DNA of 50,192 nt from Ectocarpus siliculosus. Lineage: Eukaryota > Sar > Phaeophyceae > Ectocarpales > Ectocarpaceae. The DNA lies in the NCBI GenBank assembly GCA_000310025.1, contig FN648762.1, forward strand, positions 1 to 50,192. Reading direction: 5' to 3'. The notes under the pieces were generated by a model. The model did no database searches, was not told the origin of the DNA, and saw nothing but the letters and a program-made list of their open reading frames with translations. Position 1 is the stretch's first letter, and every line of letters begins with the position of its first letter. The translations under genes were made by a program, and so were the position numbers. Of this stretch, positions 26,636 through 48,311 are shown piece by piece.

Positions 26636-27692
26636 ATATAGACTTAACTACAATTATGTCGGAGGCCTGAGACGCAAGAGTTCAACCATTGTTGCAGTCT
26701 AAAAGCAAGACGTTTTTTTTCGGTGCATCAGTTCGCGGTCGCCTTGAGACTTTTTTTCTCGCCGGCTGTTGCCCGCTGCAGCGGGCCAGTCTCTGGATCG
26801 CATTGCCCCTGTCGCGAGCTCGATACTCCAAAGGCGAGTAGAGTTACAGCACGGTGAATGCACGCCAACCACTATTTCAGTCATTGAGCTAGACGTTGCG
26901 GTGCGGAAAAACTGTTTTAATTGTTTTTAAATGGGGTTCAAACATTTTCTTCGGCCGTCTTCGCCGACGTGGGCGTGCCACTCTCACGATCACAGCGCCC
27001 CTGTCACGAGCTCTAGACTCCAAAGGCGAGCCGAGTTACAACACCGTGAAGTACGGCTAAATATCGTGCATCCAGGCGCGTCTACGGAAGGGACTTCAAG
27101 GGACTGTGATCTCTAAAGAATCAGGCAGCTCATTGGACGAGATTTCGGAGAACGTCAACTCATAAATCATGACACGTACTTGAAGTACAAGCATACATGT
27201 ACCAGTAGTACTTTGCACAGACCTTTTATTGCCGCATGGTCTCATCTGTAGATAGATATCGACAGACTGTCCGTACTATATGGTATGCGTTGTAGGTACA
27301 GTAGAGTGCATGCATGCATCCTGTCGCCTTCTCTAGCGGAAGCAACGCGAACTGGAGTATGTGCATCGTGTATTGTCACCGCACGGATGGTTACGTACTG
27401 TACGTATATGCCACACACACCCTCCAAGTTGCACATTTCTGCAACTTTCTGCGTGTGCTTTTTTTTGTTCCTAATATTCTGCAGCTGTATGTAGCAAGGA
27501 AGATTTGACAAATAAATGTAGATTGATCGTTGTTGTTGTGGTACGCCACAAATCTCACGGCATCATCAATTGCTGCAAGTGCTGCAAGGTTGGAGGCATA
27601 TTTCTTCTGTAATACTGTGAACACTGCTGCTGTTGTTGTACTGCTGTTGTTGTATTGAAGGTGCTGCTGTAGACTGCGCTACATCGTATGTA
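26636..27692 (+). repeat. Inverted-duplication arm X' (left copy, about 1.05 kb)
   Basis: From TATAGACTTAACTACAATT to GTAGACTGCGCTACAT this segment is the reverse complement of 45541-46650 with many small differences. Inside are two diverged subunits sharing CCCCTGTC(G/A)CGAGCTC and CTCCAAAGGCGAG, a T/G-rich microsatellite (CTGCTGTTGTTGT), and small frames that are not conserved enough to call genes. No transposase is seen. Confidence 0.85.
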
Positions 27693-27995: not shown

Positions 27996-28263
27996 TGTAG
28001 TGGTATGCACGCGTGATGAAGTCTGGTTGACCCGTGAAGAAGAACTCACTTGTTGTTACTCTTGTAGAACAGCAGCAGCAGTAGCTGTTGCCTTGGGTAT
28101 CGGTAGGAATGACACCAAGGGGCACAGGATCCTCTGCACAAGCACGGGCTACTAGATCCTGTCCCCTGCTTTTTATCCTTCCGCGGAGAGTTACATCTCT
28201 CCGCGCCTTCTAGAAGGAACCAAGCTCTTCTATGTTCCGTCTACACATCTGAATCCTATAACA
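27996..28263 (-). repeat. 3' LTR of the retrotransposon
   Basis: 268 bp, TGTAGTGG...CTATAACA on the plus strand, therefore TG...CA on either strand. It differs from the other LTR at four single positions (near 28107, 28145, 28170 and 28236). It should supply the polyadenylation site of the element's RNA. Confidence 0.95.
28182..28205 (-). promoter_or_regulatory. Perfect 9-bp hairpin in the 3' LTR
   Basis: CGCGGAGAG, a 6-nt loop and CTCTCCGCG form a perfect stem. It is unchanged in the other LTR (41275-41298). A role in RNA 3'-end formation, dimerisation or translation is possible but not shown. Confidence 0.7.
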
Positions 28264-28823
28264 CTAGCCCACCCTGGAGGTTCTCATACGCAGATACTGT
28301 AAAACCTCGGAGTCTTGACAAGCAATTGTCGAGTCTCTAAATGAAAGTATCGAGGATGTGGAGCTCCAAAACAGCACAATTCACCCTCCCACACCTCTCA
28401 CTCGATGAGTCGCACGACCATCGTTTGACTTCTAAAACGACAAAAAGACACAGACAGGAAGGAACTGACGGGGCTAAGAAAAGCCTACGACGACCGGAAG
28501 AAGGTCGGAACCAAAGAAAGGAAAACACAAGGAAGGAAGAAAAACAGAAAAGAAAAACAAAGGTCGTCAAAACGACAAAAAAGAAAGGATCACTGTAGGA
28601 ACCACAACAAGACCGGTATCGTAAGAAAACGATCAGATACGCCATTCACGCAGTCGCCACGGCAGTGTAGAAGGGGCAACAATGGGCGCCAAACACCTAC
28701 AGGTCGTGACCAACGCTAAAGGCACAAAAATAAAGCGAGGAGAAAGCGAAAACCAACCAAGGCTAAAAAGCAACCCAAACAACGCTGAAAACAACTGAAT
28801 GCCAAGACAGCTAGCATGTCGTC
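28264..28823 (-). other. Region between pol and 3' LTR, with polypurine-tract candidate
   Basis: About 560 bp without a recognisable gene. Next to the LTR the transcribed strand reads CCAGGGTGGGCTAG, a short purine-rich stretch at 28264-28277 that is the natural plus-strand primer candidate. The 85-codon plus-strand frame at 28341-28598 is antisense and not supported. Confidence 0.5.
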
Positions 28824-31800
28824 TTAATGGGGGCGCGCAACGTTATCAGGACACGAATCAGTCCCGGGGTCACCACGCGACATGTCGACGTTGCGAAGGA
28901 TCCCCTTAAAAAGGGCACTGCCGCTGTGAACTTGGAGGCACCAGGATCCGGAGACGGCGGTTTCAGCGGTGGAGTAGCGAACATCAGGAAGGGCGAGCTT
29001 GACAGGGCCAGGATCGTCCAAGAAGCGGACGACGTAGAAGTCGGACGGTAGAGGCGGTCCAGTAATCTTGCCCAACCACCAGAATCCATCGCGAGCTTTG
29101 TACCAGAAGAAGGCGCCTGCAGGTAGCGGAGTATTGGCGAAGCGACGGTCCCAAGTTGAACGAGAGACCAGCGAATAACCCGAAGGCAAAGCTCGCTCCC
29201 CTTTAGCGCGCGCCATCTCGCGGGTGGCCGCACCAATACGCATCGCCCGATAGCGACGATTCGTTTGGCGATGTTGATCAGGCGAACCCGTCCAGTACCG
29301 GAGAATGTGGGGCTTGGAATGCTGGAGGTCCATCTCACGTTCCCTAGAAGGACGAAGAAGACCTTTCCAATGCGTTTGGTACAAAACAGCGATGGTGCCA
29401 CCACGGCCACGAACAGACTGATGGCCACTAATGCGGTCAACCTCGAGACGTTCGACCGGAGTCGACACGTCGTCTTCCGTAACATGGTAGTGAGGAGATT
29501 TATTCGCATAGGAGTTTAGCACATACGGTGTAAGGCCGGCAGGCAGGAACCGAGGCAAGTCTTCAGTGTCATGCGGATTAGCGCAAAGCTTGCAGCGCGC
29601 AACTGACACACGGTTTTTCGAGTCCGGACCCGGCAGATCCGATGGAAGATCCAAATACAGTAACTTGGAAGCCAGAGGACAACCGTCGGGAGCGTCAGGA
29701 CACGGACCCACGGCCAAGATCTTGAACGGACCAGTCCAAAGGAAAGACAACTTAGCCTTGAAGACCTTGTCATCCGTGCCTGAACGAACACCTTGGCGAA
29801 TGGTAGATTCGGTGTTGTACACCCAAACCCATCCACCGACGGTGTATGAGGGGATCTTGCGCAAAGCATCCGATAGAGCGGAGTTACGCCGCTCAATCCT
29901 CGAAACGGACAGGTTGTGCTGTTCGCGAACTAAATCGTAAGAACGACGTTGGCGATCAGCAGCAAGATCGCAATACTCAAGTTGATCGCGATGCAAGCTT
30001 TGGTGGCCTCGAGCATATGGATGCTCAAAAATCGTCATCGGCATGCGTGGCAGTCGGTTCATATGCACCTCGTTGGGCGCCAAACCAGTAGCGGCACTAA
30101 CCGAATTGTTGTAGGCAAACTCAACGTGCGGCAGATGAATGTCCCAATCATCTTGCCTCTCATTGACGACCATAGCCAACATCTGAGCCATAGTGTGATT
30201 TACGCGCTCCACGCCCCCATTGCCGTTGGGATGGTAAGAGCTGGTAGCCACTTTGCGTATAGCCAGACGGGCGTATACAGCCTGCGACAGTTTAGAGCAA
30301 AACTGAGAGCCATTATCAGACAAGAGACTCAAAGGGCAACCCCATAAAGGGATATACCGATTGACAAGTACGTCAACGGTGCCTTCGGCGGTGAATTCTG
30401 CAGCCGTAACCGCGTACATGTCAGCACGGCGGCTGAAACGATCAGTGAAAAGCAGAATATATGTGTTTCCGCGCGGTGTCAACGGGAGGGGACCGAAATA
30501 ATCGACGCTCACCGATACACCAGGGCCCGAAGGCAGCGGAAGGCACAAAGTAGGCCATCGAGGCGTTTGACGAGATGACTTGCGAGCTTGGCATCGCAAA
30601 CAATGCCTTACCCACCACTTCGTGCAAACACTCATGCCAACCCACCAATAAAAACGTTCCAGCATGCTAAGCGTGCGAGCGGCACCGAGGTGGCAGGATG
30701 CATCAGCGTGACAGGCTTGCATGATCCTCGGACGCATGAGCATGGGAACATAAATCCGAATGGGTTCGTCGTTGAGAAGGCGAGCAGCACACCCGCCAGG
30801 ACGTGTGGTCGTAGACGACGGGGGCACTGTTTGCTTGCGAACAAGCAAGACCAAACCATCATCGTCAACCAGTAACCGGCCTTTGTTAGACAGGTCACGA
30901 ATCTCCGACAGAGGAGGTCGACGAGCGGACGGAAGATGATCCAGGAAATCCGGAGGGAGAGCCGAAGGCCGACCCAGAAGGATGAAACGAATAGCTGCCG
31001 CACAAACAGGTTCGTTACGTTGCTCGCGAGCCCAATCAGCATGCGAGAAACGTTCGACGGACGCCCGGAAGGCTAAATCTGCCGAGGAATGTAAAGCCGC
31101 CTCGATAGAAGAGGGGGCCGATTCCTGAGGCTCCGGCTGCAATCCACCCGAAGGCAGAGTAGCAGCGGAAACAGAAGGCAAAGGCGTACGAGTGGTCGAA
31201 ACCGAACGCGTCGAAGATTCCGAAGAATCGGGGGCAGCAGAAGACTGCTGGGCAGGAGCAACCGAAGTTGCAGGATTCGTCGAAGACGCAAGATCCCTTC
31301 CACGAGCCAGAGGCGTATGAAGGTCTGGGATCGAAGTGTCAGCACCAGGAGCCGAAACCAACCTGGTCAAAACGGGGGGCGCCGTCGATGCTGATTGTGC
31401 GGGCGGGGAACGTCGAAACGATCTGGGCGAAGCGGAAATCCGAGTAGGAGCAGGCGGGTCCTCGGAGAAACCATAATCCACGGGCGGGAGGGGCGTGCCT
31501 GCCACAACCGCCGTGCGACGGCGAGTTCGCGTGGAAATTAGTTGAGTAGGGTCGAGAGTCCGTCGTGATGCTGCAGTCGGCGAGACGGCCGGCGAAGACT
31601 CGGGCTCGAGAGCCAAAATGTCCTCCACCGAAGAATGTAAGGAGGCAGACCAATCGAGGGTCCTGCCATACAGGCGTCGTAGCGAAGGAGACAACCCGCG
31701 GGAGTTGTTAGACGGCCAGGGTGCGATGTTCCAGACGCCAGGCGGAGACGAAAGGCCTGACGGCGAGAGACGTGGACCATGCCGACGGAAGTCGACAAAA

Positions 31801-32852
31801 TCATCTGTAGAGGGGGCCAGCCCACCCAAGACCGAAGTCGGGGAAGTGGGGACGAGCCCACCCAAGCCAACACCCACGGCGCGATGGCCAGAAGGCGTAA
31901 GGCCACAAGAACGGATGAAGAATACGCTCTCCTCATCGTCATCCGGTGTCAAGCGGCTGCGACCAGATCGGTCACATTCCGCCGCATCGATCGGAAGGCG
32001 AGAGAGGAAATCAGCGTTGCCATTTGCGGAACCCTTGCGGTACTCGAGAGTGTAATTGTAGGCGGTGAGAAATTCAAGCCAACGCTGAACGCGGGCATTG
32101 TTCTCCCCCACCTTGGCAAAATGCTCAAGAGATTTGTGGTCGGTAAAAATGCGAAATTTCGTGTCCCACAAATAACCGCGAAGTCGTTTGATGCACCATA
32201 CGATGCTACCCGCCTCGAGGTCGAGGGGAGTCCAATGACGTTCGGAGTCCAAAGTAGCTCGGCTGATGAAAACGATGGGCCGGATGGAGCCATCCGGCTG
32301 TTCTTGTTCGAGAGTTCCGCCGAACCCATCGCGACTAGCATCACAGTAGAGGCGAAAAGGTCGCGAGCCGTCCGTAACGGCATCCCAGTCTGGATAAACC
32401 AAGACAGGAGGATTGGCCAACTCAGACAGCAGGACGCGAACAGCTTGCTCCATGGCAGGGTTGGAGGCAGACGTCGCCTGCTTCTTGAGAAGAGTGGTCA
32501 GAGGTCGAATTCGCGTAGCCATGTTGGGAAGGAACTTGCGGTAGTAGCTGAGGCCGCCGAGAAGAGAGCGAAGTTGTTTAACATCCTTTGGCATGGGCAT
32601 TTTGGTGAGGGCCGCAACCTTGGCCCCGTTAGGCCGAACACCGTCAGGGGAGATGGTGTGGCCGAGGAAATCCGCTTCGGTAGCGCCAATGGTGGCCTTC
32701 GGTGGGGTGAGTTTCAAGTTGTGGGTGCGCAAGCGTTTAAACAGAGCGCGCATGGTATCAACATGAGAAGCAGGGTTGTCGTCGAAAACGATCAAATCAT
32801 CCAAGTACGATGCAACACCGTGGAGATTTTTGATGACTTCGTTGACCACCTT
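28824..32852 (-). CDS. pol: Pol, downstream part: RT end, RNase H, integrase, chromo- and Tudor-like tail
   Basis: A 1341-codon open frame counted from the GTG at 32849. It is not an independent start: it continues the protease-RT frame after a TGA at 32853-32855. It shows RT YLDD (residues 15-18), RNase H with D170, E212, D237 and D280, and a Pro/Ser/Thr-rich linker of about 310 residues (290-600). Integrase has zinc-binding H714, H720, C750, C753 and catalytic D783, D845, E881 (35 residues between the last two), then TGPF (1039-1042). A chromodomain-like segment (about 1120-1190: VERLEVDRI, then THWKGL and HILRYW) and a Tudor/Agenet-like segment (about 1241-1308: DGFWWLGKI, then VVRFLDD) follow. 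These copy the RNA into DNA and insert it. All catalytic residues are intact here. Confidence 0.93.
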   Translation of the reverse strand, partial: KVVNEVIKNLHGVASYLDDLIVFDDNPASHVDTMRALFKRLRTHNLKLTPPKATIGATEADFLGHTISPDGVRPNGAKVAALTKMPMPKDVKQLRSLLGGLSYYRKFLPNMATRIRPLTTLLKKQATSASNPAMEQAVRVLLSELANPPVLVYPDWDAVTDGSRPFRLYCDASRDGFGGTLEQEQPDGSIRPIVFISRATLDSERHWTPLDLEAGSIVWCIKRLRGYLWDTKFRIFTDHKSLEHFAKVGENNARVQRWLEFLTAYNYTLEYRKGSANGNADFLSRLPIDAAECDRSGRSRLTPDDDEESVFFIRSCGLTPSGHRAVGVGLGGLVPTSPTSVLGGLAPSTDDFVDFRRHGPRLSPSGLSSPPGVWNIAPWPSNNSRGLSPSLRRLYGRTLDWSASLHSSVEDILALEPESSPAVSPTAASRRTLDPTQLISTRTRRRTAVVAGTPLPPVDYGFSEDPPAPTRISASPRSFRRSPPAQSASTAPPVLTRLVSAPGADTSIPDLHTPLARGRDLASSTNPATSVAPAQQSSAAPDSSESSTRSVSTTRTPLPSVSAATLPSGGLQPEPQESAPSSIEAALHSSADLAFRASVERFSHADWAREQRNEPVCAAAIRFILLGRPSALPPDFLDHLPSARRPPLSEIRDLSNKGRLLVDDDGLVLLVRKQTVPPSSTTTRPGGCAARLLNDEPIRIYVPMLMRPRIMQACHADASCHLGAARTLSMLERFYWWVGMSVCTKWWVRHCLRCQARKSSRQTPRWPTLCLPLPSGPGVSVSVDYFGPLPLTPRGNTYILLFTDRFSRRADMYAVTAAEFTAEGTVDVLVNRYIPLWGCPLSLLSDNGSQFCSKLSQAVYARLAIRKVATSSYHPNGNGGVERVNHTMAQMLAMVVNERQDDWDIHLPHVEFAYNNSVSAATGLAPNEVHMNRLPRMPMTIFEHPYARGHQSLHRDQLEYCDLAADRQRRSYDLVREQHNLSVSRIERRNSALSDALRKIPSYTVGGWVWVYNTESTIRQGVRSGTDDKVFKAKLSFLWTGPFKILAVGPCPDAPDGCPLASKLLYLDLPSDLPGPDSKNRVSVARCKLCANPHDTEDLPRFLPAGLTPYVLNSYANKSPHYHVTEDDVSTPVERLEVDRISGHQSVRGRGGTIAVLYQTHWKGLLRPSREREMDLQHSKPHILRYWTGSPDQHRQTNRRYRAMRIGAATREMARAKGERALPSGYSLVSRSTWDRRFANTPLPAGAFFWYKARDGFWWLGKITGPPLPSDFYVVRFLDDPGPVKLALPDVRYSTAETAVSGSWCLQVHSGSALFKGILRNVDMSRGDPGTDSCPDNVARPH

Positions 32853-34460
32853 TCAAAACCACCCAGGGGCAGCAGAACTGCCTTGAGGCATCTTCAACCA
32901 CTCAAAAAGCCCGGAAGACGTCACGAATGCCGTTAAAGGGATTGTATCACGGTGAACCGTGGTTTGGTGGAACGAAGACTTCATGTCGAAAAGGGAATAG
33001 ATTCGCCCTTTCAACAACTTGTCCAAAGTATCATCAACTCGAGGAATCGGAAGCTGGCTCAAAGCACAAAGCTTGTTGAGCTTGCGATAGTTGACAGTGA
33101 TGCGAACACCACCAGATTTCTTCGGTATGACTACCAAAGGACTCGAGTAGGGCGAGGTCGAATGTTGGATCAGACCAGCCGCAAGATATTGATCAAGGAT
33201 CGCGTCAACTTGTTTCGCCACCGGGGGGTTAACGCGGTATGGACGAGACGTGACGGGCGCACTGCCCGGAGAAACTGTAAGCTTGAAAGGAAAAAGCGAA
33301 CAAGATCCAAAGTCGGTGGGGGAACTCGAGAAGACATCATGATAGTCGCACAGGACGTTACCAAACTGAGTGATGACATCCGGAGTCCAACCCGGACCAT
33401 GGAGATCAAAAGAAATCTCACGGAGATGGGAGGGGAGCTTATCCCATACGCGGGAAAAACTCTGACGTTGTTCAGACGTCAACCGCTCGAGAAGAGCAGG
33501 CGGAGGCGACGAAAGAGAAGCACTGGCAGACCCAGGGTCCTCTTTGCCGCGTGGCGACGGCGTGGGTCGCTCATGCAAATTATACACGAAGGGGTCATCA
33601 ATGCGACGTTCGGCAGACGAATCAATGCCACCTGTCGAAACAGGACCCGGAACCCAGTTGCCCGAAGCAATGGTGGGATCTTGAGCCGCAGATTGAAGAC
33701 CATCGCTCAAACTGTGGCGAGACACAGCACCGAGAGGCACGCGAAGAAGGGGAGCCGAAGCTGTACCCAGAATGTCGCCTGGTTCGAGTGAAGAGATACC
33801 CGCGAGCGGGAGTTTTTGGCAACCATTTTGCACAAAATTTTCCTCGGAAGAAAACATAGCACATTGTGGAAGCATGTCCACGAGATAGTTACCTACGAGG
33901 GCTGGAGAGCCATCTCTGCGTACCAAATTAACCGGAACAAGGCTATGTTCAGGGTGAAGTTGGACGGAATGTTTCCCAGCATAGCGAAGTTGGTAGTTAC
34001 CATCTGTGGAAGGCAAATCGTGAGCAAATGCGGTGGCACCGCAACTGCTATGCTGAGCCAGGGTAAGCTCACCAAAAACACGGTCACCAGGGCGTTTCGC
34101 ACGCAAAGTGCGATAAGAGCGGTCGCTAAACCGCATCCAACTGTCTCTCCCTAGGAGCACGTCATGATGCATAACACCATCGGGAACAACGTACGCCCAA
34201 ACAGCGAGAGAGGAAGTAGGAAGGCGCTTGCGAAGAAACTGCACGCTCAAACGGACAATAGTCGAAGTTTGAAGCGGAGCAGATTCGCCGAAACCTCCCC
34301 AACATCGAGGTTGGGTTTGTTTCTCAGACAACGACGAAGCGGCCGAAGCGGCTTTCATGGATTCCCACGCAGATGCACTAATAAAAGACTGCGGGGAACC
34401 CGTGTCTAAAAGAGCAACACATCCAAACTGAACAGAAGCTGAACCGCTGTGAGTGAGGAT
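32853..34460 (-). CDS. pol: Pol, upstream part: aspartic protease and RT fingers/palm
   Basis: The frame is open from 34460 down to a TGA at 32853-32855 and lies in register with both the NADAR frame above and the integrase frame below. The protease active site LLDTGS has its Asp codon at 34404-34406, upstream of the first ATG (34358). VLLGRDSW, counted from that ATG at residues 68-75, is the second conserved protease loop. RT begins near residue 385 (SPYSSPLVVIPKK, then RITVNYRKLN) and has the first catalytic Asp in FDMKSSFHQ (D458). The TGA sits between FEWLKMPQG...GWF and KVVNEV, inside the RT palm, so it should abolish RT unless read through. Translation presumably relies on upstream initiation as a polyprotein. 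Confidence 0.9.
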   Translation of the reverse strand: MLTHSGSASVQFGCVALLDTGSPQSFISASAWESMKAASAASSLSEKQTQPRCWGGFGESAPLQTSTIVRLSVQFLRKRLPTSSLAVWAYVVPDGVMHHDVLLGRDSWMRFSDRSYRTLRAKRPGDRVFGELTLAQHSSCGATAFAHDLPSTDGNYQLRYAGKHSVQLHPEHSLVPVNLVRRDGSPALVGNYLVDMLPQCAMFSSEENFVQNGCQKLPLAGISSLEPGDILGTASAPLLRVPLGAVSRHSLSDGLQSAAQDPTIASGNWVPGPVSTGGIDSSAERRIDDPFVYNLHERPTPSPRGKEDPGSASASLSSPPPALLERLTSEQRQSFSRVWDKLPSHLREISFDLHGPGWTPDVITQFGNVLCDYHDVFSSSPTDFGSCSLFPFKLTVSPGSAPVTSRPYRVNPPVAKQVDAILDQYLAAGLIQHSTSPYSSPLVVIPKKSGGVRITVNYRKLNKLCALSQLPIPRVDDTLDKLLKGRIYSLFDMKSSFHQTTVHRDTIPLTAFVTSSGLFEWLKMPQGSSAAPGWF

Positions 34461-35546
34461 TTAGGTGGTGAAAGAGTCATCATCGATGGTAACAACACCA
34501 TCAACCAAATCCGGACCTTGCTCAGGAAGCAAAGAAGAGGAAGAGGATGGCGGGGTGCACCCGGAAGACACGGCCCAAACAGCGGTGTCATGATCCGATG
34601 GAACGTTCGCAGCGTATTGTGAAAACGACGCGAATCGTTCAGTCGGCGGAGGGGTTGAGGCCATCCGAAGACGCTGGTGTGTAGAAGGGCTAACTTCATA
34701 AACCGCGTTATGTTGAGACGACGTCGAAACGTGGTCGTTGGGGGGCAGCAAACGAGAGCTGCGCTCGGGCGGCGGGGCATTGCATCGCAAAAGACTGCGT
34801 ACTCGTTGAAGGGCATTGCCCAACAAATTGAGGCCACGCCATCGAGAGGTGGATAGAGCGTCAGGATCATCGGCTTGAAGGCCAATGCCCCAAATACGGT
34901 AGTAGGGACTAACTTCGGCAAGGATTTTGTCGCCAGATCCGAGAAGATGCTCGCGCAACTCGGAGGTTTGACTAAATTTTGCGTAAGAGCCAGTGAGCAC
35001 AATATTTTCGCGCTCGTGTTCCCAAAGAGATGGGTCGAAACCACGGACACCGCGGCCAAACTTCTTGTGTAAGGCAGGATCGGACACGCGCATGATGTTT
35101 TGTAAAGCGCAATGGTCTTCGAAAAGACGAGCTTTTTCCGCAGCGAAAAACTGCTCAGCACACGAGTATACCACTCCATCGACCACAAAAGTCGACGGGG
35201 TCCACTGGGAAAAAGGAGAGGGAGGCTGCCAAAAGAAGACCATGTCAGAAGTACAATACTCGTTAGACGGGTCGAAGACAGCGGGAACTGCAGGAGTCGA
35301 AACACCTGGAGTGCGGTTAGCCGAAGCTGATGTTGCAGCCGAAGCTGATGTAGTTGAAGCGGAGGCAGCCGAAACGCCCGCATTGTAATTTACGGCGTGA
35401 ACGTCCATGGGGACGGTCTCGGGTATGTCAGAGACCGGCGAAGAATCGACGGGAGCCGAATTGTTCGCAATAATTGGGCCAGCTACATCACGCTGGGTGC
35501 GCCCCAATTCTAAACCTGAAGAAACGCCTCGTAAGGTGTCATTCAA
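34461..35546 (-). CDS. NADAR (YbiA/DUF1768-like) domain protein within the polyprotein
   Basis: A 361-codon open frame between two in-frame TAA codons (35556 and 34461). The listed first codon is TTG and the first ATG is at 35408 (residue 47). Residues 103-253 form a NADAR domain: FFWQPPSPFSQW, VVDGVVYSCAEQFFAAEKAR (family Glu at 131), SLWEHERENIVLTGSYAKF, LLGSGDKILAEVSPYYRIWG and LNLLGNALQRVRSLL. NADAR enzymes are N-glycosidases: YbiA-type members cleave riboflavin-pathway intermediates, and others are linked to NAD/ADP-ribose and reported to reverse ADP-ribosylation. The usual Asp of the SPxDxxWGIG motif is Tyr here (residue 216). Low-complexity Ser/Ala/Thr arms flank the domain. In-frame placement between nucleocapsid and protease implies cleavage from the polyprotein. 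Confidence 0.85.
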   Translation of the reverse strand: MNDTLRGVSSGLELGRTQRDVAGPIIANNSAPVDSSPVSDIPETVPMDVHAVNYNAGVSAASASTTSASAATSASANRTPGVSTPAVPAVFDPSNEYCTSDMVFFWQPPSPFSQWTPSTFVVDGVVYSCAEQFFAAEKARLFEDHCALQNIMRVSDPALHKKFGRGVRGFDPSLWEHERENIVLTGSYAKFSQTSELREHLLGSGDKILAEVSPYYRIWGIGLQADDPDALSTSRWRGLNLLGNALQRVRSLLRCNAPPPERSSRLLPPNDHVSTSSQHNAVYEVSPSTHQRLRMASTPPPTERFASFSQYAANVPSDHDTAVWAVSSGCTPPSSSSSLLPEQGPDLVDGVVTIDDDSFTT

Positions 35547-35555
35547 CAGGTTGCT

Positions 35556-36137
35556 TTAGCTAGGAACGGCCGCCAAGGCCGGGTCGGTTAAAGAACCGAA
35601 CCGGGCGTGGTGCTCCTGGCCATTCCTCCGTGACAAGGTACGCGAGACCGCCGGCTGTTCGGAGGTCACTCCGGGAGGGTCCTCCCGAAGCCGTGGTGTC
35701 AACACTGTCGACGTTGGTCGCAGCGGCCTGGTATTGGGCGCCGTGGGGCGAGCGTGCGTCGGAAGGGATGGAGCGTCCGAAGACGATCCATGGTCGAAAT
35801 ATCTCGTGGCGGAATCTGATGATGTTCGGCGGTCAGGACCAAGAGAACAACGCGATTCGAAGCCAGGCGAATTTGACCCTGTAACTTGCCGGTCGGAACC
35901 AGTCAAGTTAGCTACCGGTGCAACAATCGAGGGCGAACCCTCAACGGAAGCGAGCACAGACGAGTTGAGCGTATCCGAAGATTCACCCGAGGTAACCAAT
36001 TCAGGCGATTCCTCTTCAATCGTCCAAAGCGCATGGCTACGGCCTGATCTGCAGACGACGGGGGGAGCGAACGAGCGGTGCCCGACAAACGAGCGGTACT
36101 CGATGGCCCCGAAGGTCCTACGGTTCTGTTCCCGCAC
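35556..36137 (-). CDS. Ser/Thr/Pro-rich acidic linker upstream of NADAR
   Basis: 193 codons in the same frame as NADAR, protease and integrase, ending with TAA at 35556-35558. It contains ESSDTLNSSVLASVEGS and repeated Ser/Pro/Thr runs, with no folded domain visible. The useful part probably begins near 36060, where a run of six G's (36060-36065) marks the likely join from the frame of the preceding reading frame. Confidence 0.6.
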   Translation of the reverse strand: MREQNRRTFGAIEYRSFVGHRSFAPPVVCRSGRSHALWTIEEESPELVTSGESSDTLNSSVLASVEGSPSIVAPVANLTGSDRQVTGSNSPGFESRCSLGPDRRTSSDSATRYFDHGSSSDAPSLPTHARPTAPNTRPLRPTSTVLTPRLREDPPGVTSEQPAVSRTLSRRNGQEHHARFGSLTDPALAAVPS

Positions 36138-36565
36138 CTCAAGACAGTACTCGCGCCAGACTGGTTAGTTTCTGACGGAGCGCCAGTCCAAAGAGGCAGA
36201 GACGCAGAGGTGGCAGATGATAAGTGCGATGTAGAAGGTGGGACGAGAGCATATGTCTGGATACCGACCTGATCGACACTGGGAGAAACAACGGATACCG
36301 ACGTATGGTTGTTATTGTGCTGCACCGAAGTACCAGAAGGGATAACATTCACTGAAGTGTGGTTATCGTTGCGTAGGACCGAAGTGCTAGAGGCAACAGT
36401 GTGTGACGGCGCGACAGATACCGAAGTATTGTCGTTGTTGCATAAAACCGAAGTATTAGGGGCAACAGAGCGTGACACACGAGCGTCTTGTGAAGAACGA
36501 GACGAGGTCCCCGAAGATGCTGAAGGCGGTCCGGGGGAAGTAGGCGAACCACACCGATGAGTCAT
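35912..36565 (-). CDS. Ser/Asn/Thr-rich repeat protein, start overlapping the nucleocapsid stop (ATGA)
   Basis: The ATG at 36565 overlaps the TGA of the nucleocapsid frame in ATGA (36565-36562). The first 120 residues hold three diverged repeats of about 20 residues (TSVL(C/R)N(N/D)(D/N)NTSVSV-like). After about 36060 the frame loses its composition and the linker frame at 35556-36137 takes over. It may be a reinitiation or frameshift site joining gag to pol, or simple frame decay. No domain is recognised. Confidence 0.55.
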   Translation of the reverse strand: MTHRCGSPTSPGPPSASSGTSSRSSQDARVSRSVAPNTSVLCNNDNTSVSVAPSHTVASSTSVLRNDNHTSVNVIPSGTSVQHNNNHTSVSVVSPSVDQVGIQTYALVPPSTSHLSSATSASLPLWTGAPSETNQSGASTVLRCGNRTVGPSGPSSTARLSGTARSLPPSSADQAVAMRFGRLKRNRLNWLPRVNLRIRSTRLCSLPLRVRPRLLHR

Positions 36566-37254
36566 CCGCTGCGAGAACGACCACCATTTTGGAAGTTGCC
36601 AGGTTGACGGGCATTGTGATTGGTCGAAACCATGATGTCAGACGAAGGACCGGTGTGTGCATGTGTTTGTGGTTGATAGAGGGACAGAGCACCAGTGTGG
36701 TTGGTGTTGATCGAAGGGTGTTGCTGAGGGTGAGAGTTACCCGCAGAATTTTCTGGGGCATACCCACTGTTGTGCGATTGTTTCTGATGAGTGTGAGGGG
36801 AACTACCACCGTCGGAACGGCGATTCTCAGCGTGGTGTCGACGCTGAGAGGACGAAGAGGAAGAGCGCTGGTGGCGTCTACCCTGATTGTTTTGGCGGTT
36901 GTCCGCACTTTTTCGTCGAAAAGACCGCATACGGCCTTGCCAACGTCTAAAAGCAGCAGAATCGTCATTGAGGAGACCCAACTCAGGGTTCAACAACCCA
37001 CTAGAATTCGTGAACGGTGCAACGCATTGCTTCATGGAATGGTCTTCACCCGAGCAGTTCAGACAGCGATTCCTGTTTTCGCGGAAGGCTTGCGAGCGAG
37101 CCTCTTGTGTCAACAAAGGAGTCCACAAAAAAGGATCCTCCGTGTTACGAAAACTAGAAGTGAGAGCGTATACATCAGACCAATCGGCTTGCGAAGCAGG
37201 CCAAGAATTATAGTTGCGTGTGAAAGGGTCAGCATCGTGCGATTGTACCGGCAA
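36562..37254 (-). CDS. gag: Gag nucleocapsid with CCHC zinc knuckle
   Basis: 231 codons in the same frame as the capsid region above, separated from it by one TAG (37285-37287, context CAG TAG GCA). The zinc knuckle CLNCSGEDHSMKQC gives C64, C67, H72 and C77, the C-X2-C-X4-H-X4-C form that binds and packages retroelement RNA. A basic Arg/Ser/His/Gln-rich tail follows (RRHQRSSSSSSQRRHH), suited to nucleic acid binding. The true start is unclear: the protein probably continues from the capsid by readthrough, or the TAG is a mutation. Confidence 0.85.
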   Translation of the reverse strand: MPVQSHDADPFTRNYNSWPASQADWSDVYALTSSFRNTEDPFLWTPLLTQEARSQAFRENRNRCLNCSGEDHSMKQCVAPFTNSSGLLNPELGLLNDDSAAFRRWQGRMRSFRRKSADNRQNNQGRRHQRSSSSSSQRRHHAENRRSDGGSSPHTHQKQSHNSGYAPENSAGNSHPQQHPSINTNHTGALSLYQPQTHAHTGPSSDIMVSTNHNARQPGNFQNGGRSRSG

Positions 37255-37284
37255 AACTACAGGGTTCTGAGCTGAACCTGGTGC

Positions 37285-38655
37285 CTACTGGCCCGAAGGC
37301 GCGGGGGCGCGGTGTTGGGACCGCCGAGGCTGCGAGGAGCCACGCGTCGAAGACAACGAAAAATAAGATGAACCGCCGATAGCCGGGGTTTTATTTGTCG
37401 CTAGAGGCGCGAACGACTCCCACATATCCGCAATCGACGCAAAGGGAGTGACGGCCGTGGCCAGAGCACCCGGGTACAAAATCGGAGACAAACTCGGAAA
37501 TTGTTTGCAGACCGAATGCCGCACTATTTCTAGAACCATGGATACGCTAGGGGCCAAAGTACGCTCAGAGCCAGTCACAGACGAAACCAACAAACGAAAA
37601 GCACGAAGGTAATCCGCGAAAGAAGTACCATCTGCTACTCCAAATTGTTGAAGCCTCAAAATCGACTCTTGACGGTCGCCGACATCAAATTGCTCCGCAA
37701 GATGACGCAACAGCAACTGAAAAGCTTCTGGTCCGGTGGCGCCGCCGTCCAAGCTTCTCTTCACCTGCTGAAAGTAATCAGCGATGGAAAGGACAAGATC
37801 GGCAGTAGAGGGCTTGTCAGGGGTGATCGCACCCGAAAGTTTCTTGTCGAGAGGCCGTTCCCATCCAGGCACGTAATCAGTACTGTCCAACCCTTCGCTT
37901 TGGTCATCACACAGCAACAATATGTCGGACAAGGCCGTTCGTGTTGTGCGGATGAGCTGTTGGTAGCTGTCCCCAGGCAACAAAGTTGAAGGGAAGGGCA
38001 TGGTAGCGACATTTCCAACTTTTTTCAAGTTCAGAGTGATGTACGCCCGTTGGACAGTAACTACGTGAGCCTTGCGAACTCCCGAAGCAGCTGCATCTAC
38101 TGTGGCTTGACGAGCATGTGCAATGTTGGAAGAAAGTGGCAAGACACTATCATCCGAAACGACAGGGGGTGCAGCAGCTGCAACCGAAGGAGCAGCAGGC
38201 GGAACACGATCCCAAGACGGTACAACATGATGAACATCTTGTACGGGCACAAAAGTCGAAGGGGGGGTGGGGTTTGAGAACCCGGGGTTGTGTGCGATTC
38301 CTGAGCCTACAGCACAATCAGCGGCAGAAAAAACAGGAGGTGCAACAGTTTCCGAAGAAACGGGGGGGGCCGAAGCCTGTGCCATGTCCGAAAACGCAAC
38401 ACGAGTTTCCGAAGAAACAGGGGGGGCCGAAGCCTGTGCCATGTCCGAAAACGCAACACGAGTTCCCGAAGAAACAGGGGGGGCCGAAGCCTGTGGTATG
38501 TTCGAAAACGCAACACGAGTTTCCGAAGAAACGGGGGGGGCCGAAGCCGGAAGGTTCGAAAACGCAACACGAGTTTCCGAAGAAACGGGGGGGGGCCGAA
38601 GCCGGAAGGACAAAATCATCACGCAACAAGAAACGAGCATCCGAAGTTGCGTCAA
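37285..38655 (-). CDS. gag: Gag capsid-like region with N-terminal 19-residue repeats
   Basis: The 456-codon frame starts formally at 38655, but its first codons belong to a different register. The correct frame is entered at the nine-G run (38587-38595). Residues about 22-100 are five copies of a 19-residue unit with the core APPVSSETRVAFS. A helical part (about 200-430: SYQQLIRTTRTALSDILLL, DRQESILRLQQFGV, TSFADYLRAFRLLVSSV, SMVLEIVRHSV) has the Gag capsid pattern of hydrophobic helices around SFADYLRAFR. Capsid proteins assemble the virus-like particle. It ends in TAG at 37285. Confidence 0.75.
   Translation of the reverse strand: MTQLRMLVSCCVMILSFRLRPPPVSSETRVAFSNLPASAPPVSSETRVAFSNIPQASAPPVSSGTRVAFSDMAQASAPPVSSETRVAFSDMAQASAPPVSSETVAPPVFSAADCAVGSGIAHNPGFSNPTPPSTFVPVQDVHHVVPSWDRVPPAAPSVAAAAPPVVSDDSVLPLSSNIAHARQATVDAAASGVRKAHVVTVQRAYITLNLKKVGNVATMPFPSTLLPGDSYQQLIRTTRTALSDILLLCDDQSEGLDSTDYVPGWERPLDKKLSGAITPDKPSTADLVLSIADYFQQVKRSLDGGATGPEAFQLLLRHLAEQFDVGDRQESILRLQQFGVADGTSFADYLRAFRLLVSSVTGSERTLAPSVSMVLEIVRHSVCKQFPSLSPILYPGALATAVTPFASIADMWESFAPLATNKTPAIGGSSYFSLSSTRGSSQPRRSQHRAPAPSGQ
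38341..38605 (-). repeat. Five 57-bp repeats with G-run length differences
   Basis: Units spaced 57 bp carry TTTCCGAAGAAAC followed by a G run and CCGAAGCC. The run is 8 G, A+7 G, A+7 G, 8 G and finally 9 G (38587-38595). The first four keep the frame and the ninth G shifts it by one. The last two units are shortened. Confidence 0.85.
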
Positions 38656-38866
38656 TGAGGGACGGAACTACTTGTCTTTGACGACCTGGCTTGCGGGGCA
38701 AGCTGGTGTCCGAGCCTGACCCGGTCTTGCCCTTGCCTTTGGAGCTGCGAGCTCCATCCCCGCCACGCTTGGCCACCTTTCTCTCCCGGCTACCACCCAC
38801 CGAAGAGGACGAAGGCGCCGGGGGTCGACGCGATACTCCAGCCGAGCTCCAGCCAGACTCCTCGCC

Positions 38867-39390
38867 CTAGCTACCAGGACCAGTCTCCCGACTCGGTTGC
38901 GCCTGCTTGACAGGACCCGGCGCCGGCTGCTGGAACACATAGGAAGCCTCTAAAGGCGGACCGCTGCAGCCAGGGTACACCACCGGAGCAGTGGCACGGG
39001 CGTTGGCTGTCCGCATCCCAGCGAGGAAACGGCCGGCCAGATCCCGAAGATCCAGACGGGAGGTGTTGGCCACATCCACCGCCGCCTGAATGGTGACGAC
39101 CGCCGGCAACGCGATGGCCACTTCCGTGGCCAAGTCCGGAAGTTACAGCCGCGGCCGAAGCCGTGGCCGAAGCCGGGGGTGCTGCCGAAGCAGCGGTGGT
39201 GGCCGAAGCCGAGGGGGGTAGGACCATCTAGACAGGCTCGGCCGGCCGGCCGGTGACTGCAGACCTTGTTCCGCCACCGGTGGTGGAATCCCGAAGCTCT
39301 GGAGTCGATATCCCAGCAGAAGACGCCGCCTCGGGCTTGACGGCAGGGGCGGTGGCCACCATCGTCGTACGGCGAAGGATGTCGTAGAGA
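38867..39390 (-). pseudogene. Frame-broken middle of the gag-like region
   Basis: Alternating frames give a helix-forming stretch (LEIVKRRNRHLYDILRRTT near 39360-39420) and an Ala/Pro-rich segment with a TAG near 39228. A second helical segment (DVANTSRLDLRDLAGRFLAG, about 39020-39080) follows, ending in TAG at 38867. In the same frame below this stop a Lys/Gly-rich, basic stretch (GKGKTGSGSD) leads to the 57-bp repeats. At least two frame changes and two stops break the reading frame. No known domain is recognised. Confidence 0.5.
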
Positions 39391-39406
39391 TGGCGGTTAC
39401 GGCGCT

Positions 39407-40952
39407 TTACGATTTCAAGATGGATAAGGCATCAGCAGCACGTTCATGCGATGAGGAAAGCATGGGGGGGGGTGGGGGCACGGCGTAAGGGTAAGGGTAA
39501 GGGGTAGGGGCAGAGGGTACTGCTGAAACAACCGAGGTCGCAGCTAGGGGCGCCGAAGAAGGAGCTAGCATGGCAGAGTCGGTCGAAACGGTAGGATCGA
39601 AACCCGCCGTGTGAACACGTGAATCTGTGGAAAATGCGGGCAGAGACGTATCTACTGGCATAGAAACAGCGGTGTTTACAGCAGCCGAAGCCGCTGACAC
39701 ATGGTTCTGTGCGGAAGTAGTGTGGGCGGGGAACGGGGCAGACGACACTGTACGCAGGGTCGAAACGGTACGAAGAGGCGGAGCTGGAGGAATAATAGCA
39801 TCGCCAGCAGTCGAAACTGTGGGCAGGGGCGGAGCTAATGGAATGGGCAACAGTACACGTGCAGCAGTCGAAACCGCAGAGACAGGTGCACCAGTAGTGG
39901 GAACATGATAGGCATGTGGGGGGGGCAGACGTCACAGCAGTGCGCGGCGTCGAAACGGTACGCAAAGGTGGGGCGGCTAAGGCAGCAGCACCGCGAACAG
40001 TCGAAACTGTGGGTAGCGGCGGAGCTAAAGGGATGGAGGCAAACACACCTACAGCAGTCGAGACCGCAGGAACAGGCACATTAGCAGCCGAAACTGCACG
40101 TGTAGTCGAAACTACTGAAGCTAAAGCATCGGAGGCAAACGAAATGGCCTGTGTGGGCGAAACCACGGGATCAAATGCAGTAGAATCAACTGAAAGAGCT
40201 GGGGTAGACGAGGCTACTGTGGGGAGTGTACCAGAGGCAATCGAAATCGCCCGTGTAGTCGAAACTACTGGAACAGTGGTTAGTGATGTGGCGGAATCTG
40301 CAAGCGGTGGTATCACGGAAGCAGATGCACGACGGTCACGAAGCCGTTGAGCGCGAGCCGCTGCTTGTACACGGTCGCTACGCGAAGAGAAAGGAGGGAT
40401 CGCCGGCACTGTATAGTCAAATTGCAACGTGCTGCGAGAAGCCGAGCGACTGGACAAGCGCGGTACTACAGGGCCAGCAACATGGTCGAAACCGATGTCG
40501 GTCCCAAGAGCAGGGTGCTCAACGGTGGATGGGGCGAGAGGAAAATTCGAGTCGACATGTGGTTCACGCGGGAATTCAGAAAGGTCATCACCAGCAGCCG
40601 TCGAGACGGACTGCTGTTGTACACCCAAAGACACAGAGGCAGAAACCGAAGTTCCAGGTGTGGGTGCTGGCGGTTTGAGGACAGCACCCACGGGGTTAGC
40701 GTCGACCGAAGCCGGCGAGGCGAACCTCTCCCGAATGCGTTGAGCGCGAAGCTCTGACAAACGAGCGGCATCGGCAACAGGGTCAGCGGCACGAGCACCG
40801 TCCGAAGACAGCAGCAGCTGTGTGGCCTGACGACCAGCTGCCGGGGACCCGAAGGTCGCTACGCGAGGCGGTGACACCGGCCAACGCGAACGTTCAGAAT
40901 GCTCAGGGCTCGCCGAAGCAGAGTCCGATGAGCCGACGCTAGATTGAGACAT
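39407..40952 (-). CDS. gag: Gag-like N-terminal Ser/Thr/Pro-rich protein (frame-shifted)
   Basis: The first ATG downstream of the 5' LTR that opens the long frame is at 40952 (MSQSSVGSSDSAS). The frame runs about 340 codons through low-complexity Ser/Ala/Pro/Val sequence with repeats of PLAPPLPTVST and APPLRTVSTPRT. At the eight-G run 39918-39925 the sensible register moves to the frame 39407-39850, which continues the same repeats (IPLAPPLPTVST, then APPLRTVST) and ends at TAA 39407. Beyond the run the first frame turns Cys-rich and unlike Gag. The protein is likely disordered, and similar long N-terminal extensions occur in large Gypsy elements. Confidence 0.6.
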
Positions 40953-41069
40953 ACCGATAAGCGAGGCAAAGCTAAGCTGTGGTTGGGACGAAAGCGCAAA
41001 AAAACTGCAGCAGCAGTCTAAAGCACCAAACCGCGCCAAGACACAACCAACCCAGACAACACCGTACGA

Positions 41070-41088
41070 ATAAGCCGACAACGCCAAG
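41070..41088 (-). promoter_or_regulatory. Primer binding site candidate
   Basis: Directly after the 5' LTR (which ends CCACTACA with transcription) the RNA reads CT then TGGCGTTGTCGG. The TGG two bases in is the expected complement of a tRNA CCA end. It is not the initiator-Met type (TGGTATCAGAGC), and I cannot name the tRNA. Confidence 0.5.
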
Positions 41089-41356
41089 TGTAGTGGTATG
41101 CACGCGTGATGAAGTCTGGTTGACCCGTGAAGAAGAACTCACTTGTTGTTACTCTTGTAGAACAGCAGCAGCAGTAGCTGTTGCCTTGGGTATCGGTAAG
41201 AATGACACCAAGGGGCACAGGATCCTCTGCACAAGCAGGGGCTACTAGATCCTGTCCCCTGCGTTTTATCCTTCCGCGGAGAGTTACATCTCTCCGCGCC
41301 TTCTAGAAGGAACCAAGCTCTTCTATGTTTCGTCTACACATCTGAATCCTATAACA
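41089..41356 (-). repeat. 5' LTR of the retrotransposon
   Basis: 268 bp, 264 identical to 27996-28263. It should carry the promoter. With transcription an AGGATAAAACGC segment (about 41263-41274) just after the hairpin is the best TATA-like candidate. The hairpin is at 41275-41298. Confidence 0.95.
41275..41298 (-). promoter_or_regulatory. Perfect 9-bp hairpin in the 5' LTR
   Basis: Identical to the hairpin at 28182-28205, next to the TATA-like segment. It would be in the transcript leader if transcription starts upstream of it. Confidence 0.65.
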
Positions 41357-41429
41357 ACCTTCCGACTATTGTAACTTCCACCAATTATTCCATGAAACGG
41401 TGTGATATCACGAAAAGGTGATCTCTGTA
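41357..41429 (-). mobile_element. Fold-back element, outer part of right arm
   Basis: TTCCGACTATTGTAACTTCC, AATTATTCCATGAAACGG, TGTGATATCACGAAAAG and GATCTCTGTA are the reverse complement of 27697-27775. This shows the LTR insertion point, because 27995 and 41361 are adjacent in the empty arm. Confidence 0.85.
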
Positions 41430-41435
41430 TATATA

Positions 41436-41740
41436 CTAGGGTTAGGGTTAAGGATTGGCCCCCCGCCCCCCAATGGGCCTGGGGGCCAACATCCCGGCCC
41501 GATGGTAGTGAGTGTCCGTGGGGAAGCAAAGAAGAAGAAGAAGGGTAGAGGATTTGTAGGGGGAAGAAGTGGAGAGGTAAGGAATTTGTGAAGGATTTTC
41601 GGCACTCGACGAGCGCGCGGTCCTGCGGAGGGGGAAGGGACGTGTGAGTCCATAGTCTGGTCTATCGGAAATTGTAAAGCCGAAAAACCGAAGTACACAT
41701 TATGCACATTATGATGGAGATTGCCGACAAGAAAGGTACC
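41436..41740 (+). repeat. AB dispersed family, copy 5 (5' fragment)
   Basis: It starts CTAGGGTTAGGGTTAAGG, two telomere-like units longer than the other copies, then the 5' hairpin (41455-41486), AGAAGAAGAAGGG and CGACGAGCGCGCGGTCC. Homology stops near AGAAAGGTAC at 41740. It abuts the fold-back element on the left. Confidence 0.85.
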
Positions 41741-41868
41741 CAACATATCATAGAAACATATGCACAATATGGATACGAAGTGGTATGTGGGGATGTTGGC
41801 AGCAGGAAGCACGTTCGACATGTCTAACAGAGCCAAATGATACTCGAATATTTTGCTGTAGTCTAACT

Positions 41869-43125
41869 TTAAGTATAGGTCGTGACGGTAGGCACCCACC
41901 GAGTGCTCATGGCGGCTTTGAGGCGTCCGACATAGGGTGATGTGGATCGCAACTCGCGCAGTATCGTCGTCATGGTCCCTTTGTCTAGGTGGCTAGAGAC
42001 GAAGTTGGGGTCATGTAGGAGCCATTGAACGTTGGAATGGCCGCCGTCTCGAACAGAATGGTAAGTTCTGGCCAAAGAGATGGGCAGGAACGGTGTACAT
42101 GGGGGAGAGCGCAGGATGTGCGAACTTGTGATGCGGTGTGTGAATGGAATATGAACGGAGGAGGGAAATTATTGTTGATGTTAGTGACATTGTTTTTGTA
42201 TCGGAAGGTGTACGGGTATTGCGTCGTACAGAAGAAAAGACGAAAATACGCTTTTATATGGATGTATTGTATTTTGTAACACGAATAAAGATATATACGA
42301 AAGATCACACGAACTAATCTACACCCAATTATATGCTATCGAACGAATCAAACGTGTTTTAAACCATGAAGGAAAATAGAAATGAAAGACCACACGAATG
42401 AATCTATACCTCATTATACAATTGTAGCATATATCGTTGCACATGTGAATCGATCTCACCTCCCTTGGACGGACACGAGATGGTCACCGAACATTTTTTT
42501 GAGTTCACCATCCTCCACGTTGAGCGAGGCGAAGTTGCATCGGCAGTTATACATCCTCGATTCCTTCCTGAACCTCTGCGCTGATGGCTCCGGAGAATCG
42601 TACAATTCTTTCAATGAAGGGGGTAGTGGCGGCAGTCGCGGGAGGATGTACTTCCCATTCTTGCAACAAATGCCCTTGGACTCTTTAGCGAACAGTTTGG
42701 CGCCACAATGCCGGCAAGGATCTCCGGTCTGCGCTGTGATGCCCTGGTCTCGTCGCGCCTCCTCCAAGGCTCGCTGGCGGTCTCCAACCAATGGCTCGTA
42801 GTGAGGTGGAGTCGTCCTCGGCGTGAAAGATGTCGTTGAAGGGCAACCCCCTTTTGTTGTTGATGACGGTCGCTCTACGCCGTCGACGTGCGGCGTTGAG
42901 CTGTTGTGCTCTGTCGGCATGGCGAGTTCTACGACGGCTGTTGATGGCCTCTGCCGACGCGGAACATTGTGCTCTACGATGGGCGTTGAGGGCATCGGCG
43001 GAGGCAGCACGCTGAGCCCCTCGACGCGTGTTTATGTCGGTGGCGTTGACAACTCGGTACCGGCGGTTCCTTGTGTTTGTGTCGTCTCGACGGCGGTTGT
43101 TGCCGCGATCTCTTGGATCGGTCAT
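41869..43125 (-). CDS. Helitron Rep/helicase N-terminal fragment, two exons
   Basis: Exon 1 runs 43125-42460. It begins MTDPRDRGNNRRR with an Arg/Ala-rich repeat region (residues 1-85). After one frame change near 42800-42840 it continues as the zinc-like motif CRHCGAKLFAKESKGICC, then GKYILPRLPPLPPSL and FRKESRMYNCRCNFASL. That is the Helitron-like N-terminal domain of rolling-circle Rep-helicase proteins. The exon ends at CAAGGGAG followed by GTGAGA. Exon 2 starts at 42067 after TTTGGCCAG, and joining them yields VQGRTYHSV, matching the family's Q-G-x-x-Y-H motif. It continues QWLLHDPNF and LRSTSPYVGRLKAAM before the frame ends near 41869. The Rep HUH motif and helicase are missing, so the copy is truncated, apparently by AB copy 5. 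Confidence 0.7.
42068..42459 (-). other. Probable spliceosomal intron of the Helitron gene (392 bp)
   Basis: The donor AG|GTGAGA and the acceptor TTTGGCCAG|A frame an AT-rich interval. Splicing restores the frame across a stop that lies three bases into the intron. The middle contains a diverged duplication (CACACGAACTAATCTACACC and CACACGAATGAATCTATACC, about 80-90 bp apart). Confidence 0.65.
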
Positions 43126-44090: not shown

Positions 44091-44323
44091 ATATATACCG
44101 TATATGACACAAGATAACACACCCCCTGGACCGATTTTCAAAGCTCGATTACTCCACGACGAAGAGGATGCATAAACGAAACAATACATTTTCGAAAACC
44201 TCTCGACGAGACGGTTCCAACGCCGCCGTTTTCGGCGCTGTGACTCTTCCTGCTGTTGGGAAATCGAGCTTTGAGAATCGGCCCAGGGGGTGTGTGTTAT
44301 CTTGTGTCATATACGGTATATAT
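44091..44323. mobile_element. MITE with 62-bp terminal inverted repeats (233 bp)
   Basis: The left end ATATATACCGTATATGACAC, followed by AAGATAACACA, CCCCCTGG and AAGCTCGATT, returns on the opposite strand at the right end. The arms show a 2-bp indel and about two mismatches over 62 bp. Interior about 110 bp, no coding. Because the ends are TA-rich, a TA-type target (Tc1/mariner or similar) is possible but the superfamily is unknown. Confidence 0.8.
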
Positions 44324-44510
44324 CGACTTAACTACATATGCATGGACGCGTTTTTTTTTTGTCGTTGTTGCACGGACACTTGCTTGCATAGTCGCCGCTG
44401 TATGTATCGGACGGGGTAGGGCGTAGAAAATACCGTCACAACACAGCTAACTCCACACTCTTACGACCATGATCACTCGGCGTCTCGTCGATACGATAGT
44501 CGCAGGTGGG

Positions 44511-45539: not shown

Positions 45540-45540
45540 A

Positions 45541-48038: not shown

Positions 48039-48051
48039 CTAACCCTAACCC
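48039..48051 (-). repeat. Telomere-like tract (CCCTAA)2
   Basis: CTAACCCTAACCC, two units of the TTAGGG type on the minus strand. Confidence 0.6.
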
Positions 48052-48264: not shown

Positions 48265-48311
48265 TTTCCCGTGAAAACTTCGAGGGGTGATCACGCCGGG
48301 GGGAACACAAT
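48265..48311 (+). repeat. Dispersed short repeat, copy 1
   Basis: TTTCCCGTGAAAACTTCG, then GGGGT(G/A)ATCA and a C/G run, matches 49640-49685. Confidence 0.6.

Follow-up and report, generated by a model that had tools for sequence, protein, structure and literature searches.

A YbiA-type NADAR domain within the Pol protein of a Ty3/Gypsy retrotransposon lineage in Ectocarpus

What might a retrotransposon gain from a NADAR domain in its polyprotein? The question arises from a 50,192-nucleotide stretch of the genome of the brown alga Ectocarpus siliculosus (contig FN648762.1, positions 1 to 50,192; hereafter the window), in which a Ty3/Gypsy element on the minus strand carries such a domain in the N-terminal part of Pol. 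An earlier note on this DNA did not know the fusion as described for Gypsy elements. It is already known and was published in 2025 (PMC12477816, Genome Biol.). According to that paper, every family of one of the four Ectocarpus Gypsy lineages has a YbiA-family NADAR, for which an RNA-processing role and, from bacterial matches, a horizontal origin are suggested. Judged from the nearest named proteins, Gypsy-12_Ec32 and its relatives described there very probably belong to the same lineage as the window element. The main text of that paper has zero occurrences of stop codon, readthrough, frameshift, catalytic or active site, and what we add is the active site, the selection on the domain, its single clade and a conserved UGA-C at the Gag/Pol border. 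The account of function that we favour, plausible if somewhat short of probable, is that the window element is a decayed member of a lineage whose YbiA-type NADAR, part of Pol and packaged by readthrough, would clear guanine-linked ADP-ribose for reverse transcription.

The NADAR domain and its ADP-ribose site

An HMM search, which the earlier note had proposed, gave a significant match to PF08719 that covers positions 1-163 of the 163-position profile (E 1e-42, 146.6 bits against a curated cut-off of 35.1). The predicted fold is that of NADAR/YbiA proteins, and the protease, reverse transcriptase (RT) and integrase of the minus-strand element lie in register with the domain, so its placement within Gypsy Pol stands. 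Active-site positions were taken as the equivalents of residues in the Phytophthora nicotianae NADAR, mapped by motif from the alignment, and were read in 27 loci, namely the window and 26 ten-kilobase loci from the same genome. The features concerned are as follows.

27996-41356, minus strand: Ty3/Gypsy element, recognised by its pair of long terminal repeats (LTRs) and its domain order
34461-35555, minus strand: Pol frame carrying NADAR, 364 amino acids (aa)
34785-35237, minus strand: NADAR domain (YbiA subfamily), N-terminal part of Pol
35154-35156, minus strand: active-site Glu, E43 equivalent, E in 27 of 27 loci
35133-35135, minus strand: active-site Lys, K50 equivalent, K in 27 of 27 loci
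34914-34916, minus strand: catalytic Glu that marks the YbiA subfamily, E125 equivalent, E in 27 of 27 loci
34899-34901, minus strand: D130 equivalent, Tyr in the window copy alone and D in 26 of 26 other loci

The YbiA subfamily is defined by Glu at the E125 position (PMC11543638), and Glu, rather than Asp or His, is what the Gypsy domain has there. The residues that contact the distal ribose and the phosphates are invariant across five families whose synonymous sites are near saturation. Hence a true NADAR domain with an intact ADP-ribose site is fused in Gypsy Pol.

This invariance bears on two other explanations. The domain could lack catalysis and serve for binding or structure, for instance as a part of Pol that binds RNA or acts as a spacer and is kept for its fold; the linkers that flank it in Pol are long and evolve fast, so that a folded island could serve assembly, and the nematode protein SNA-3, with three NADAR domains, has a role in trans-splicing (PMC11125620). 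However, constraint on the fold alone gives no reason to expect ribose and phosphate contacts that are invariant over five families, and we consider such a module quite unlikely. The second is a small-molecule clean-up of the kind proposed for YbiA of bacteria and plants, in which NADAR, close to the particle, hydrolyses reactive riboflavin intermediates or derivatives of free ADP-ribose and nucleic-acid marks are uninvolved. The E125-type Glu, by placing the domain in the YbiA subfamily, is in keeping with this, as is the activity of NADARs from bacteria and plants as riboflavin N-glycosidases, cited in PMC11543638 and PMC11125620. It can nevertheless be argued that tethering the enzyme to Pol would do little for a metabolite found throughout the cell, and the Gypsy loci show no variation at the positions that touch ADP-ribose in the co-crystal, which makes clean-up quite unlikely.

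Copies, selection and descent of the lineage

The window copy itself is dead, as the following features show.

32853-32855, minus strand: in-frame stop, decay
34461-34463, minus strand: in-frame stop, decay
35556-35558, minus strand: in-frame stop, decay
36165-36167, minus strand: in-frame stop in the Pol register, decay
36562-36564, minus strand: TGA stop followed by C at the Gag/Pol border, with a 26-nt context identical to that of locus L009
37024-37065, minus strand: CCHC zinc knuckle of the Gag nucleocapsid, from a motif scan, in a frame that differs from that of NADAR in the window copy

Because the CCHC and the Gag stop are out of the Pol frame, the copy must also carry a frameshift, and its NADAR has lost the D130-type residue. 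Intact copies exist elsewhere in the genome: L009 has a 776-aa Gag frame, one stop and then a stop-free Pol frame of at least 2144 aa (2580 aa in the genome scan).

The decay of the window copy would suit a functionless chance capture in one dead copy, which the earlier note had named as the outcome that would overturn its reading. The window copy is indeed dead, but a one-off capture is ruled out for the lineage by the many copies, the linkage of NADAR to RT and the purifying selection described below. When the genome that contains the window (189.5 Mb, 492 contigs) was scanned with Pfam and the best 150 of 230 candidate places were scored, all 150 NADARs were above the cut-off, and 24 of them were free of stops within open frames of at least 2000 aa (hand count). 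A second scan used the RT domain of L009 as query and compared the best 134 of 563 candidates, leaving out the second piece of one RT match on contig C53. A listed NADAR lies upstream on the same strand in 114 of these 134 RTs, with a median gap of 1516 bp (range 560-2586). Three further RTs are preceded by truncated NADARs (hand comparison), leaving 17 of the 134 without NADAR among the matches listed; one of these, on C396, lies about 1.3 kb from the contig start. The same fusion is found in the nearest named proteins, from Ectocarpus sp. CCAP 1310/34 (P0005, 91% over 88% of the query region; P0007 and P0014). Chance capture is therefore next to impossible as an explanation of the fusion. 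As a separate observation, the NADAR matches at C3:3913787-3914242 and C489:435177-435536 sit in frames that stay open over 10887 and 6365 aa, in which runs of N were perhaps counted as open.

The 26 ten-kilobase loci are a non-random sample, with L009-L014 taken for their long open frames and L015-L034 as the first 20 of 80 places from the high-scoring end. The NADARs of the 27 loci form five families (F1 to F5) with representatives 54-68% identical. A sixth family was read at L091, which is 79.5% identical to L009 in NADAR and 87.6% in RT.

Selection was measured on 10 of the 26 loci plus L091, with one pair per family for within-family ω (dN/dS). The F4 loci L022 and L026 are frameshifted in the protease/RT region and were left out of the RT comparisons. 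Between families the proportion of synonymous differences (pS) is about 0.6-0.9 in all regions, near saturation. Given that saturated dS makes between-family ω unreliable, we compared the proportion of nonsynonymous differences (pN) with that of neighbouring regions. It is 0.23-0.35 in NADAR and 0.23-0.31 in RT (without F4), as against 0.50-0.64 in the linker before NADAR and 0.45-0.58 in the linker after it. Within families, the ω of NADAR is 0.10 in F1, 0.14 in F2, 1.22 in F3 (five changes), 0.46 in F4 and 0.30 in F5. The corresponding values are 1.16, 1.00, 1.02, 0.51 and 0.84 for the linker before NADAR, and 0.15, 0.11, 0.10 and 0.71 for RT in F1, F2, F3 and F5; the linker after NADAR is likewise constrained, with 0.09-0.46 in four of five pairs, the F3 pair having zero synonymous changes there. 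Pooled synonymous to nonsynonymous changes are 25:22 in NADAR versus 22.5:52.5 in the linker before it (Fisher p 0.013), and the pooled RT changes, 23:21, have the same ratio as NADAR. Comparison of F1 with the sixth family gave an ω of 0.05 for NADAR and 0.04 for RT, both rough at dS > 2, and a NADAR pN of 0.149 that is below the 0.25-0.28 of the linkers. The dN/dS check proposed in the earlier note thus finds NADAR clearly constrained: it is under purifying selection, yet evolves faster than RT among closer relatives.

The descent of the domain was followed in a NADAR tree of 88 rows (IQ-TREE quick, SH-aLRT support only; P0011-P0013 were left out for their long branches). All 16 Gypsy-labelled rows fall within one clade of 24 rows (support 96). 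The remaining eight proteins are short and carry no Gypsy label, so that the labels need six changes on the tree, three of them forced by starred branches. All eight match Gypsy Pol, and P0015, P0017, P0057, P0087 and P0133 align over 180-239 columns; as these five alignments exceed the 151-residue domain, the unlabelled rows are probably Gypsy pieces. Furthermore, NADAR and RT distances agree over nine elements (Mantel r 0.91, 0/5000 permutations; F4 left out). These results most simply fit a single capture followed by joint descent of NADAR and RT. The neighbouring NADARs are bacterial (Planctomycetota, Polyangia and Myxococcota) or, weakly, from an ochrophyte. Among the matches listed, the nearest prokaryotes (39 loci) are a Planctomycetota metagenome-assembled genome (MAG) at 59% and a Polyangia MAG at 58%, and viral NADARs (15 loci) reach 51% at most. 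A Chrysoparadoxa protein (P0082) and two unnamed proteins form a weak sister group (SH-aLRT 75). A cellular single-copy NADAR was sought in the genome with P0082 as query, and the best 150 of 247 candidates were at most 56% identical, with no single match standing apart.

The Gag/Pol border and the function of the domain

The CCHC can be read in the frame of NADAR in 16 of the 27 loci, one of which, L030, was set aside for its decayed frame (22 stops, none at the usual site). All 15 usable loci, from all five families, have a TGA-C between CCHC and NADAR. Its distance is constant within each family (383 codons in F3, 345 in two deleted copies), and in 13 of the 15 this TGA is the sole stop. 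F4 and F5 contribute one locus each to this count. The equivalent of the border TGA in L009 lies at L009:6434-6436. UGA-C is known as a leaky stop context. The stop is conserved and is always UGA-C, which suggests that NADAR-Pol is produced by stop-codon readthrough. Structured RNA downstream of the Gag UGA was considered as a readthrough signal, but the five families are without a consistent one.

What the domain would do in such a product is indicated by its characterised relatives. NADARs of E. coli (YbiA), phage and myxobacteria release ADP-ribose from guanine in both DNA and RNA (PMC11125620), the P. nicotianae NADAR likewise removes guanine ADP-ribose (PMC11543638), and on guanine-ADP-ribose in RNA the NADARs were the sole hydrolases active, being inactive on phosphate ends (PMC11833690). 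Since NADARs of several subfamilies, E. coli YbiA included, act in this way (PMC11125620, PMC11833690), we infer that the Gypsy NADAR is an active N-glycosyl hydrolase. Readthrough of the UGA would yield NADAR-Pol, with which NADAR would enter the virus-like particle together with RT. Within the particle it may clear guanine-linked ADP-ribose, or a similar N-glycosidic lesion, from the genomic RNA or the new cDNA, and this clearance would let reverse transcription proceed. Packaging, substrate and source of the mark are all inferred in this account.

A number of observations weigh against it. The conservation of residues applies to the better copies, as the 27 loci were chosen for high NADAR score or long open frames, and D86, a ribose contact, is not conserved among them. 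The within-family ω of NADAR is not uniformly low (F3, 1.22 on five changes; F4, 0.46). Between F1 and the sixth family the NADAR pN of 0.149 exceeds that of protease (0.120) and RT (0.086), and F1 and P0006 are 70% identical in NADAR and 87% in RT. RNA folding 3' of the UGA is inconsistent (z -1.0, +1.0, -1.1, -2.4 and +0.6 in the five families). E. coli YbiA, active in vitro, gave no cellular protection from DarT1 or YarT (PMC11125620), and the E. coli C7 NADAR did not act on the uracil mark that PARP10 makes (PMC13036486). As for writers of the mark, DarT (PF14487) has 0 matches genome-wide in a search whose control matched 1 of 14 genomes and in which writers other than DarT and PARP were not searched for, and PARP is represented by four weak exon-size matches.

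A DarT1-NADAR toxin-antitoxin module was also considered and rejected, with no linked DarT and 0 DarT matches in the whole genome. The earlier note had suggested that the element may carry the domain as a counter-defence, to remove host ADP-ribosylation or to alter NAD-linked signalling. The part of this that holds is a NADAR fused in Gypsy Pol, kept across copies and families with its ADP-ribose site intact; a removal of host ADP-ribosylation or a counter-defence would go beyond these findings. A related explanation, in which the domain counters a diffusible NAD-derived signal (cyclic ADP-ribose types) or the restriction of retroelements by host PARP protein ADP-ribosylation, seems to us unlikely. 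We know of no such host restriction in brown algae, although PARP-like exons are present in the genome. A virus survey proposes roles of this kind for the NADARs of viral polyproteins and phages (PMC9503650), whereas the NADARs tested are active on guanine bases, with no activity at phosphate ends (PMC11833690) or on uracil (PMC13036486).

Clearance of guanine-linked ADP-ribose for reverse transcription can also be put in a more specific form, which we place on the unlikely side. Here the packaged eraser would allow the RNA and cDNA to survive a host, symbiont- or virus-triggered nucleic-acid ADP-ribosyltransferase.

Element architecture, related systems and implications

The remaining features of the window element are these.

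27996-28263, minus strand: 3' LTR, 268 bp with TG...CA ends, direct repeat D1, 99% identical to the 5' LTR
41089-41356, minus strand: 5' LTR, 268 bp, direct repeat D1
41071-41086, minus strand: putative primer-binding site, TGG-type, beginning TGGCGTTG, two bases inside the 5' LTR
34395-34406, minus strand: aspartic protease motif DTGS, from a motif scan
32796-32807, minus strand: RT motif YLDD, from a motif scan
30294-30710, minus strand: integrase zinc-binding domain and part of the integrase core (PF17921, E 1.2e-13; PF00665, E 6.4e-9)

The two LTRs differ at 4 of 268 positions. The 5-bp flanks of the window copy, TAACT and ACCTT, are mismatched and form no clean target-site duplication; we keep the Gypsy assignment because recombination or mutation can erase a duplication and the other features fit. 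A CCHC motif of the same type was found in other loci. DTGS, YLDD, RNase H, the integrase zinc finger and the integrase core share one register downstream of NADAR, and protease, RT, RNase H and integrase stand in Gypsy order. The Pfam scan of the window gave no protease match, the protease being identified by motif alone. RVT_1 matches (E 1.3e-9 and 1e-6) flank a stop, and RT_RNaseH matches at E 1.2e-30. No Chromo match was found in the window at E 0.01; that of P0010 (E 0.042) is below the cut-off.

A tandem repeat of about 57 bp occupies window positions 38347-38602 within the Gag region, and the Gag protein of L009 shows short repeats. On either side of the element lies a pair of 78-bp repeats (window 26781-27050 and 46238-46506), spaced by about 190 bp within each pair; by eye, the two pairs are near reverse complements of each other. 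A 127-bp direct repeat, 86% identical, lies at 25278-25404 and 41443-41569, the latter copy just outside the 5' LTR. Outside the element (window 1-27800 and 41360-50192), where 13 longer frames are present, none of the nine frames scanned has a Pfam match at E 0.01. The window has no tRNA gene.

The closest analogue is an orchid Ty3/Gypsy element with an ALKBH5-like m6A RNA demethylase (PMC9289625), likewise a Gypsy-borne eraser of an RNA mark, with activity shown in vitro. It differs in enzyme and mark and in carrying the enzyme in a separate ORF2, acquired recently according to the paper's title, whereas NADAR lies within Pol. With six families and near-saturated silent sites, the NADAR fusion looks older than the orchid acquisition. 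The ORF1 of a Crassostrea gigas Tx1 LINE has a NADAR (PMC12477816) and is also a retrotransposon protein, though of a non-LTR element. Polyproteins of animal RNA viruses place NADAR alongside a polymerase (PMC9503650), but one that is an RNA-dependent RNA polymerase and not part of a retroelement. The NADAR of P. nicotianae (PDB 8bau) and E. coli YbiA (PDB 2b3w) are non-retroelement proteins, unlike the Pol-embedded domain of the window. Among the matches listed in the open-access literature (titles and abstract openings) there was no further paper on retrotransposon NADAR.

A 391-aa Ectocarpus protein, Esi0017_0056, has NADAR at residues 132-291 and improves salt and heat tolerance in Arabidopsis (PMC7922944). 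It could be a host gene or a derivative of the NADAR-Gypsy lineage. P0013 (1883 aa, labelled as from a Bacteroidota MAG) has an N-terminal NADAR at residues 56-213. Its residues 1484-1868 align at 41% with P0134, the C-terminal part of which weakly matches Phage_integrase (E 1.2e-5, just below the cut-off), and Pfam found no RT in P0013. None of the other 20 proteins listed with P0013 (P0134-P0153) has a NADAR Pfam label among the best 8000 candidates; P0148, a relative of P0013, carries a DNA methylase. From these matches P0013 looks like a tyrosine-recombinase element with NADAR, possibly a second type of retroelement with the domain and perhaps eukaryotic, and if so, retroelements took up NADAR more often than in the published cases.

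A lineage that has retained an ADP-ribose hydrolase domain in Pol through near-saturated silent divergence most simply profits from it. The retention points to a pressure on reverse transcription, from ADP-ribosylated nucleic acid or a related lesion; we know of no study of such a pressure in brown algae. Alongside the m6A eraser of the orchid Gypsy, this would be another base-mark eraser borne by a retrotransposon. ADP-ribose marking of foreign nucleic acid as a defence is, to our knowledge, not known in eukaryotic algae. If a packaged NADAR does enable the RNA and cDNA to withstand a nucleic-acid ADP-ribosyltransferase, the long conservation of the domain would count as indirect evidence for such marking in brown algae.
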